Assembly (NCBI RefSeq): GCF_000166135.1
Contig: NC_014666.1
Coordinates: 8,632,601 to 8,696,600, forward strand
Direction of reading: 5' to 3'
Source of the DNA: Pseudofrankia inefficax
GTDB taxonomy: Bacteria > Actinomycetota > Actinomycetes > Frankiales > Frankiaceae
Length of the DNA stretch: 64,000 nucleotides
The position numbers and the translations under genes are program-made. The notes below the pieces were generated by a model. It had not been told where the DNA came from and searched no databases. It saw only the letters and a program-made list of their open reading frames with translations. Shown here piece by piece: positions 60,606 through 63,903 of this stretch; within the stretch, counting starts at the first letter, position 1; the number at the start of each line of letters is the position of its first letter.

Positions 60606-61820
60606 ATGGAGTTCACCCAGTCCGACAAGCTCGCCGGCGTCTGTTACGACGTCCGAGGTCCGATCCTCGACGAGGCGACCCGGATGGAGACTGCAGGCCA
60701 GCGGATCCTGAAGCTGAACATTGGGAACCCCGCTCCGTTCGGCTTCTCCACGCCGCCCGAGGTACTCGCCTCCGTGATGGAGAACCTCGCGAGCGCACAG
60801 GGCTACAGCGACTCCAAGGGACTTCCCGCCGCCCGCGCCGCGGTCGTCGACTACCACCGCCGCAAGGGCATCGCCGGCATCGGACCGGACGACGTCTACC
60901 TCGGCAACGGCGTCTCCGAGCTGATCATGATGTCGCTCCAGGCGCTGCTCAACAACGGCGACGAGGTGCTGCTGCCCGCCCCGGACTACCCGCTGTGGAC
61001 GGCCGTCGTCAGCCTCTGCGGCGGCCGGCCGGTGCACTACCTGTGCGACGAGTCCGCGGACTGGGCCCCCGACATCGCGGACGTCGCCGCCAAGATCACC
61101 CCGCGTACCCGGGCGCTCGTGCTGATCAACCCGAACAACCCGACCGGAGCGGTCTACGACCGGGCCACGGTCGAGGCGCTGGTCGAGCTGGCCCGCCAGC
61201 ACAACCTGATGCTCTTCTCGGACGAGATCTACGACCGGGTGCTCTTCGACGACGCCGAGCACGTCTCCACCGCCGCGCTCGCGCCGGACGTGGTGTGCGT
61301 GACCTTCAACGGGCTGTCGAAGTCCTACCTGCTCGCCGGCTTCCGGGCCGGCTGGATGGTCGTGTCCGGCCCGCGCCAGCACGCCAGCAGCTACATCGAG
61401 GGCCTCAACATCCTGGCCAACATGCGGCTGTGCGCGAACGTCCCGGGCCAGTACGCGGTGGTCGCGGCGCTGGCGAACGACGAGGGCGCCGGCAGCCTGG
61501 TGCTCCCGGGCGGCCGGCTGCGCGAGCAGCGCGACACCGTCGTGAAGCTGCTGGCCGACATCCCCGGGGTCTCCTGCGTCCCGCCGCGCGGCGCGCTGTA
61601 CGCGTTCCCGCGGCTGGACCCGGAGGTCTATCCGATCAAGGATGACGAGCGGTTCGTCCTCGACCTGCTGCGGGCGGAGAAGATTCTTCTGGTGCAGGGC
61701 ACCGGGTTCAACTGGCCGAGGCCCGACCACGTCCGGATCGTCACCCTCCCCACCGTCGACGACCTCACCGCCGCGATCGGCCGGATCGACCACTTCCTGT
61801 CGACGTACACGCAGCGCTAG
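60606..61820 (+). CDS. PLP-dependent aminotransferase (alanine-type)
   Basis: A 404-residue class I aminotransferase. The PLP lysine is in NGLSKSYLLAGFRAGW; GNGVSELIMMSLQALLNNGDEVL, APDYPLWTAVVSL, LVLINPNNPTGAVYD and the Asp/Tyr SDEIYDRVL motif surround the cofactor. The YcgA/AlaA-like N-terminus MEFTQSDKLAGVCYDVRGPILDEATRM suits an alanine-pyruvate aminotransferase (AlaA/AspC-like subgroup). It transfers amino groups between alanine or a related amino acid and 2-oxoglutarate. The ATG is clear from the family start. The next gene begins 91 bases later, after the DnaA-box-like cluster. Confidence 0.92.
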   Translation: MEFTQSDKLAGVCYDVRGPILDEATRMETAGQRILKLNIGNPAPFGFSTPPEVLASVMENLASAQGYSDSKGLPAARAAVVDYHRRKGIAGIGPDDVYLGNGVSELIMMSLQALLNNGDEVLLPAPDYPLWTAVVSLCGGRPVHYLCDESADWAPDIADVAAKITPRTRALVLINPNNPTGAVYDRATVEALVELARQHNLMLFSDEIYDRVLFDDAEHVSTAALAPDVVCVTFNGLSKSYLLAGFRAGWMVVSGPRQHASSYIEGLNILANMRLCANVPGQYAVVAALANDEGAGSLVLPGGRLREQRDTVVKLLADIPGVSCVPPRGALYAFPRLDPEVYPIKDDERFVLDLLRAEKILLVQGTGFNWPRPDHVRIVTLPTVDDLTAAIGRIDHFLSTYTQR

Positions 61821-61854: not shown

Positions 61855-62087
61855 TCATCCACACTCTGAGGGAGGATTTCCACAGCCGTATGCACTCTGT
61901 GGACAAGGTCTGTGGATAAGCCTCTCTCAACTGTGGATGCCAGCGTCGAGTCGACCAAGGAGCGGCTACCGGGCGTAGCTGGCCCGGTAGCCCCGGATGG
62001 GTCGGCAAACAGCCCTGAGGCCGGGGCCGACCCGCCACCGGCTGACCGCCCGCGGCGCCGGCCGCGTCCCCAGCGCCCTGTGGATAT
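61855..62087. promoter_or_regulatory. Cluster of six DnaA-box-like 9-mers
   Basis: Six copies of TCCACA-type 9-mers lie within 233 bases. On the plus strand: TCATCCACA (61855-61863) and ATTTCCACA (61876-61884). On the minus strand: TTGTCCACA (61898-61906), TTATCCACA (61911-61919), GCATCCACA (61932-61940) and ATATCCACA (62079-62087). Two are exact matches to known DnaA-box forms: the Streptomyces-preferred TTGTCCACA and the E. coli TTATCCACA. The cluster overlaps the start of the membrane-protein gene. No dnaA or dnaN is in the window, so it is not the usual oriC context. Confidence 0.7.
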
Positions 62088-63903
62088 CGCCGTGCCCGCC
62101 GCGTTGGCCGGCGCGGTCGTCGCCGTTCTGGCGGTGCTGCACACCGTGCTGGCCCGGCCGCTCTGGTACGACGAGATCTGGCGGCCGCACTTCCTGTCCG
62201 CGCCGCCGTCGACGTACTGGGCACAGCTCGCGCACGCGAACACCCCGTCGGCGCTCGGCTGGGCGGTGCTCGTCCGCCTCGTCGGGGACGTCGCCGGGTG
62301 GCACGCCTGGGCCCTGCGGGTTCCCGAACTCGTGGCGCTGGTGGCGCTGCCGGTCGTCACGTACGCGTTCATCCGCCGCTTCGCCGGGCCGGTCGCGGCC
62401 GGCCTCGCGGGGGCGAGCCTCGGGCTGTCCGGGGTGGTCGTCGACCTCGGTACCCAGCTCAAGCCGTACAGCGTCGAGGCGCTGGCCTCCGTCGTCATCG
62501 TCTGGCTGTGGCTGAAGGCGCCGAGCACCGCCACGTGGGGCCCACGGCTCGGCTGGCGCACCGCCGCCGGACTGGTCGCGTTGTTCTCTGTGCCGGCGGC
62601 GCTCCTGATCATCCCGCTGGCCGCCGTCGACGTGGGGACCGCGGGCTACGGCTATCGCTACGGCAGCTGGCGGGTCGGCTGGCGCCACCGGCTTTGGGCC
62701 GGCGCCACCGCTGCGCCGGCGGTCGTGATCTGCGGGCTGCACACGTGGCTGTTCATCGGCCACCAGTCGAGCCAGCGGGCCAGCCAGTTCTGGAACACCC
62801 AGTTCCTTGCCGGCCGCGGCCCGCTGGGCGGCCTGCGGTTCGTCGGCGGGGAGCTGGTCCGGATCTTCGGGGGCGCTCCGACCGGCGTCGACCGCTACGA
62901 CCCGAACCTCGTGCACCCGGCCACCGACGCGACCTTCGCCGCGGCCTGGCTGCTCGCCCCCGCCGCCGCCGTGGCCTTCCTCGTCGGCGCGGCAGCGCTG
63001 GTCCGCGGCAGCACGATCAGCCGGACGGTCCTCGGCATCGGCGGCGCGCACCGCCCGTCCGATCGGCCGGCGACGGCGGACGACGGTGGCTACGTGGTCG
63101 CGGCCGTGCTCGGCGCGCTCGCGCTCGCCCTGGTCGCCAGCGCCGGGCGCTACTGGCCGTTCGGCGCCAACCGCACGAACCTGTTCCTCGTTCCGCTGCT
63201 GGTCACGGTCGTCGCCACCGGTGCCGACCGCCTTGGCCGACGCGCGTTGGCCGACCACCCGCTGGCCCGGCTGGCCCACGTCCGGCGACGGGCCTCGACG
63301 GCTGGCCGGCTCGGCCTGGGCTGGCTCGTCCGGGGCTGCCGGCTGGCCGCGGCCGGCTGGTCTCGGCTCGGACGGCCCGGCCGCGAGATCGCCCGGGTCG
63401 CGCTGGTCGCCGTCCTGGTCGTGCTCGCGGCAGCGCCGGTCGCTTCGGCGAGCGCGCTGGCGCCACTGTGGCGGGACCGCGCCGAGATCCGCCCGGTGGC
63501 GCTCATGGTCGACGCGACGACGCAGGCCCGTCGGCTCTACCGCCCTGGCGACGTCGTCGTGGTCGGCGGCCGGCTCGCCCGGTCCGGCTGGCTGTACGCC
63601 ATGGACGTCAGCGCGGACCGGCCCTTCCTGGCGTCGCCGGCGGAGCCGCCTGGGCGGGTCGGGCCACGAGTGCCCACCGGTGCCACGGTGTTCCTCACCG
63701 CCGTCGGCAGGGGCGAGGCCCTGGCCGCGCTGGCTGGACGGTCTGGGCCAAGGCCGGTCCGGCTGCTGCTGTTCGTCCTCGTCTACGACCGCGCGGGCAC
63801 GGCCGGCGAGCTCGCAAGCCTGCGCACCGCCGGCTGGTGCGCCACCCAGACCTTCGACTACCCCGGCACCGGCTCCCTGCGCGTCCTCACCCGCTGCGCG
63901 TAG
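61912..63903 (+). CDS. GT-C fold-like multi-pass membrane protein
   Basis: A protein of up to 663 residues with about ten or more membrane helices. After a disordered, Pro/Arg-rich N-terminus (about 1-60), the first helix is followed by ARPLWYDEIWRPHFLSAPPSTYW. The acidic YDEIW pair after helix one is a common feature of GT-C glycosyltransferases of the ArnT/PMT type that use lipid-linked sugars. The C-terminal soluble segment (RYRPGDVVVVGGRLARSGWLYAMDVSADRPF) is extracytoplasmic. Enzymatic activity is inference; it might add sugars to cell-envelope polymers. The start is uncertain: the GTG codons at 61912 and 61933 lie within DnaA-box-like sequences, and no strong ribosome-binding site is seen. 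Confidence 0.78.
   Translation: MDKPLSTVDASVESTKERLPGVAGPVAPDGSANSPEAGADPPPADRPRRRPRPQRPVDIAVPAALAGAVVAVLAVLHTVLARPLWYDEIWRPHFLSAPPSTYWAQLAHANTPSALGWAVLVRLVGDVAGWHAWALRVPELVALVALPVVTYAFIRRFAGPVAAGLAGASLGLSGVVVDLGTQLKPYSVEALASVVIVWLWLKAPSTATWGPRLGWRTAAGLVALFSVPAALLIIPLAAVDVGTAGYGYRYGSWRVGWRHRLWAGATAAPAVVICGLHTWLFIGHQSSQRASQFWNTQFLAGRGPLGGLRFVGGELVRIFGGAPTGVDRYDPNLVHPATDATFAAAWLLAPAAAVAFLVGAAALVRGSTISRTVLGIGGAHRPSDRPATADDGGYVVAAVLGALALALVASAGRYWPFGANRTNLFLVPLLVTVVATGADRLGRRALADHPLARLAHVRRRASTAGRLGLGWLVRGCRLAAAGWSRLGRPGREIARVALVAVLVVLAAAPVASASALAPLWRDRAEIRPVALMVDATTQARRLYRPGDVVVVGGRLARSGWLYAMDVSADRPFLASPAEPPGRVGPRVPTGATVFLTAVGRGEALAALAGRSGPRPVRLLLFVLVYDRAGTAGELASLRTAGWCATQTFDYPGTGSLRVLTRCA

Follow-up and report, generated by a model that had tools for sequence, protein, structure and literature searches.

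In Pseudofrankia inefficax, five closely spaced DnaA boxes lie at the junction between an aminotransferase gene, the conserved neighbour upstream, and a gene encoding a GT-C-like membrane glycosyltransferase, whose start lies under the boxes. We propose with moderate confidence that boxes 1-5 are a selected DnaA-binding array of the oriC-proximal-cluster kind, which titrates DnaA and probably also serves as an operator of the GT-C gene. The window (the whole stretch of 64,000 nucleotides analysed) covers positions 8,632,601-8,696,600 of the contig and dnaA is at position 662; with the contig taken as circular, the array is approximately 122 kb from dnaA. Joining of the contig ends is supported by a relative (G004), where a single contig carries both dnaA and the cluster at a distance of 115 kb. 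The earlier note's description of the boxes as lying away from oriC was therefore misleading. Coordinates within the window are listed in the table.

Features at the aminotransferase/GT-C junction (positions within the window)
Feature	Position	Strand	Description
Class I/II PLP-dependent aminotransferase gene	60606..61820	+	Best NCBIfam model alanine aminotransferase, below cut-off
Box 1	61855..61863	+	TCATCCACA, weak; core TCCACA in 7/8 Pseudofrankia, 5' triplet variable
Box 2	61876..61884	+	ATTTCCACA; in 8/8 Pseudofrankia, one as GTTTCCACA
Box 3	61898..61906	-	TTGTCCACA, exact consensus; unchanged in 8/8 Pseudofrankia
Box 4	61911..61919	-	TTATCCACA, exact consensus; unchanged in 8/8 Pseudofrankia
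GT-C-like membrane glycosyltransferase gene	61912..63903	+	Weak Pfam PMT_2 match, below cut-off
Box 5	61932..61940	-	GCATCCACA, weak; within GT-C reading frame; TCCACA core in 8/8 Pseudofrankia
Box 6	62079..62087	-	ATATCCACA; confined to the window genome plus the two genomes closest to it

A recount confirmed the earlier observation of six TCCACA 9-mers in 233 bases (61855-62087), two of them exact and three close together on the minus strand. Genome-wide counts were made by pattern searches of the genome, which is one contig of 8,815,781 bases. The 2,064 TCCACA cores found in these 8.816 Mb give an expectation of 0.055 per 233 bases, as compared to the six present, and the genome-wide chance expectation for five cores packed into 77 bases is approximately 9e-6. 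Exact TTRTCCACA boxes number only 33 in the entire genome. Across the full 64-kb window, TCCACA is not over-represented (14 cores versus 17 +/- 4 in shuffles), indicating that the box signal is local. Chance or local base composition as the origin of the array is ruled out by these core density statistics.

The GT-C protein is present at the same locus in all eight Pseudofrankia genomes; named loci within the genus include those of Pseudofrankia sp. BMG5.36, Pseudofrankia asymbiotica and Frankia sp. AgB1.9. The genus pattern, with distances counted between 9-mer starts, is NNNTCCACA(+) -21- NTTTCCACA(+) -22- TTGTCCACA(-) -13- TTATCCACA(-) -21- NNNTCCACA(-), the last step being the 21 bp from box 4 to box 5. 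This 21-22-13-21 spacing is identical in 8/8 genomes while the spacers have diverged, and only G007 lacks box 1. Around the junction, 24 of 30 alignment columns in box cores are invariant versus 16 of 95 elsewhere (Fisher P 4e-10), and the six variable box-core columns belong to the box missing from G007. Coding constraint cannot be the explanation for boxes 1-3, which precede the GT-C frame. Judged from this alignment, boxes 1-5 (61855-61940) are under selection: the loss of boxes in close relatives, which had been named as evidence against a DnaA site, is not what is seen, as boxes are kept while spacers change. Box 6 is probably not a member of the array, given that it is not conserved beyond the two closest relatives.

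A search of 35 Frankiaceae genomes with the pattern TCCACA-N12-15-TGTGGA-N4-8-TGTGGA gave matches in 28, as compared to two matches in all for reversed-pattern controls. In 26 of the 35, a three-box core (one forward box and two reverse boxes) lies between the aminotransferase and GT-C genes: 8/8 Pseudofrankia, 12/13 genomes taken as Frankia and 6/6 taken as Parafrankia, the last two genus names being inferred from matching named loci. Box 2 is the forward box of this core and is mostly TTGTCCACA in Frankia. The two remaining matches (L308 and L309) were considered as instances of the same array, but are actually a cluster at pcnA-NUDIX. In Protofrankia coriariae and in Frankia CIT1, meridionalis and CiP1, the aminotransferase gene is present with neither a GT-C gene nor boxes beside it, and only remote GT-C homologues without such arrays are found elsewhere in these genomes.

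The array-to-dnaA distance ranges from 81 to 122 kb in the five genomes measured. Exact boxes are concentrated within 125 kb of oriC (11/33, P 1e-9), and this concentration persists when oriC itself is excluded (8/30, P 1e-6). A scan of the 200 kb on either side of oriC in three Pseudofrankia, one Frankia and G186 (probably a Streptomyces, the name being inferred) identified further clusters flanking oriC, each with a locus-specific box spacing. At rplI-dnaB (L034:1499-1652; G000:C1:8756498-8756651), box offsets of 0, 15, 80 and 145 are kept in Pseudofrankia, and clusters are present at the same locus in Frankia and, by gene mapping, in G186. The pcnA-NUDIX cluster (L036:1337-1378; G000:C1:8787836-8787877) consists of four same-strand boxes with steps of 9, 12 and 12 that recur in Frankia and a fourth genus (L308). 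On the opposite side of oriC, 95 kb from dnaA, a cluster with steps of 11 and 13 (L033:1632-1664; G000:C1:95131-95163) separates the 3' end of crgA from that of a convergent gene; boxes after crgA are also found in Frankia and G186. Because it lies between convergent gene ends, the crgA cluster cannot be a promoter. The strongest G186 cluster is at serS-pheA. Orthology of this cluster with the array was rejected as the gene context differs, and the pheA locus of Frankia has no boxes. As the crgA and rplI-dnaB clusters recur in G186 and serS-pheA boxes are absent from Frankia, the set is partly shared, with other members, this array among them, restricted to a single lineage. The earlier note had regarded many similar clusters elsewhere in the genome as evidence against a DnaA site; several do exist, but their concentration near oriC is what titration clusters would be expected to show.

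Other box series were observed in these genomes. A five-box cluster approximately 480 kb from dnaA (L035:958-1128; G000:C1:8335957-8336127) is flanked, based on a reading of the frames, by amidohydrolase-like and desaturase-like genes, and an array resembling it occurs at G004:C1:3809166, 419 kb from dnaA. In a Frankia genome, three TTATCCACA boxes are exactly 46 bp apart at 63 kb from dnaA (L236:2500-2608; G228:C1:5692500-5692608), and a similar series with steps of approximately 45 bp is found at G045 C1:7432669-7432814.

The array packs more consensus boxes into a short distance than chance predicts and is positioned near oriC, and the sister clusters around oriC, including the crgA cluster for which only a non-promoter role is possible, support its reading as a titration cluster. 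DnaA of the window genome has a standard DNA-binding domain with GGRDHTTV. In the proposed mechanism, DnaA would bind the consensus boxes 3 and 4 and then spread cooperatively to the weaker flanking boxes. As the array would be replicated soon after initiation, the doubled sites may capture DnaA and thereby keep it from refiring oriC. This DnaA complex would also cover the GT-C start and probably repress the gene, such that GT-C expression would follow DnaA availability. Against titration, five boxes are a modest addition to the total DnaA-binding capacity of the chromosome.

The main rival is that the array is purely an operator, in which DnaA bound across the GT-C start and the first part of the coding region represses an envelope glycosyltransferase, or times it with the replication cycle, and any titration is incidental. 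We consider this possible, though rather unlikely as the whole explanation, and the operator and titration readings are compatible with each other. The boxes overlap the predicted GT-C start and are conserved along with the gene. The likely start codon is the GTG at 61912, within box 4, and in the window and 7/7 Frankia/Parafrankia loci checked a GTG within a reverse box shares the GT-C frame. In one Frankia locus (L074) this GTG is the sole ATG/GTG/TTG ahead of the conserved WYDE motif, and in another (L077) it is the first. In R82 and nodulisporulans, the gap between the aminotransferase and GT-C genes is approximately 450 bp longer, yet the boxes are still near GT-C. Although the start codons are predicted, this overlap and the tracking of GT-C by the boxes argue for a regulatory role at this gene. 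The array is absent from the four genomes without an adjacent GT-C gene, a pattern that a gene-specific operator explains at least as well as titration alone. An exclusively regulatory role is countered by the sister clusters, which have similarly fixed spacing and, at crgA, lie between convergent gene ends, and by the retention of the locus within about 120 kb of oriC. Furthermore, a promoter scan found no sigma-70-like promoter at the array (though actinobacterial promoters are often missed by such scans), and GT-C paralogues have no comparable box array. One such paralogue (approximately 45% identity; G000:C1:8809806-8812421, minus strand; L053 and L060) is located 3-6 kb upstream of dnaA, which places each of the two GT-C copies close to oriC.

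The remaining explanations are considerably less probable. A DARS- or datA-like element, at which DnaA paired on opposed boxes exchanges or hydrolyses nucleotide, appears improbable: we know of no cofactor sites or biochemistry for such a function in Frankiaceae. The array core does combine opposed boxes with a third, and in DARS, too, boxes I and II face each other (PMC8682772), but the comparison covered box orientation, and box clusters of any kind commonly include opposed boxes. It is very improbable that the junction encodes an RNA hairpin or terminator with coincidentally box-like arms. Forward and reverse boxes are indeed inverted repeats and the stem is extended in a few Frankia sequences, but stem extension in Pseudofrankia or Parafrankia does not exceed that of shuffles, no terminator-like site was found at the array, and the third and outer boxes are left unexplained; this candidate was rejected, covariation outside the boxes being weak and confined to Frankia. 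Of the roles suggested in the earlier note, titration and gene regulation are favoured by the strict conservation of the array and by the similar clusters around oriC, while a second replication initiation site has become extremely improbable. The boxes of the array are denser than those of oriC (five in 86 bp, 61855-61940, versus nine in about 540 bp), but a standard oriC with these nine boxes already adjoins dnaA (dnaA-dnaN). The array overlaps a coding start with no dnaA, dnaN or other replication gene beside it, and it nowhere reaches the AT-richness of oriC (lowest 100-bp G+C 0.55 versus 0.49).

That box clusters on the chromosome titrate DnaA is a long-standing idea for which direct support in E. 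coli is only recent (PMC12371093). The comparative genomics presented here provide evidence, at base resolution, that several of the clusters flanking oriC in Frankiaceae are under selection. Two clusters common to Frankiaceae and the probable Streptomyces offer precise sites to test, with a simple contrast between one locus tied to a gene start and one between gene ends. Although oriC-proximal DnaA-box clusters are already known, the aminotransferase/GT-C locus is a new one, as neither the array nor its Frankiaceae conservation was found in the literature searched, and the start-codon overlap is an unusual feature. More speculatively, a lineage-specific DnaA operator in the start codon of an envelope glycosyltransferase gene might couple envelope synthesis to replication, within a ring of oriC clusters whose per-locus fixed spacing would represent an ordered DnaA-partition system partly common to Frankia and Streptomyces; we advance this tentatively, and doubt that it holds in full.

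In Streptomyces coelicolor, Smulczyk-Krawczyszyn et al. reportedly described DnaA-box clusters near oriC in 2006 under the names H69, H24 and D78. The serS-pheA cluster of the probable Streptomyces is presumably D78, and the gene context of the array differs from it. As in S. coelicolor, these are actinobacterial DnaA-box clusters that flank oriC in or near intergenic DNA, with the crgA and rplI-dnaB clusters occurring also in the probable Streptomyces; unlike the S. coelicolor type, the aminotransferase/GT-C locus has no counterpart in the probable Streptomyces, whose strongest cluster is the one at serS-pheA. In Bacillus subtilis, oriC-proximal DnaA-box clusters are said to have been described by Okumura et al. 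in 2012. In both B. subtilis and S. coelicolor, clusters near oriC suppress untimely initiation (PMC4585315; PMC5742627; PMC5010248), those of B. subtilis by titrating DnaA and restraining initiation (PMC5010248). The likeness to B. subtilis is in having several clusters concentrated near oriC; the phylum and gene contexts are different. E. coli datA, DARS1 and DARS2 are likewise chromosomal groups of DnaA boxes away from oriC, with opposed boxes in DARS (PMC8682772). No sequence homology between these elements and the array is claimed. DnaA-regulated operators with paired boxes include those of E. coli purH and nrdAB, and the array resembles them in having closely paired boxes at a gene start. 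Pseudofrankia has 4 bp between the paired boxes and most Frankia have 2 bp, as compared to the 2-3 bp separation favoured by E. coli DnaA (PMC11317965). Unlike operators of the purH/nrdAB type, the Pseudofrankia boxes lie across the predicted start codon of a glycosyltransferase gene and the first part of its coding region.
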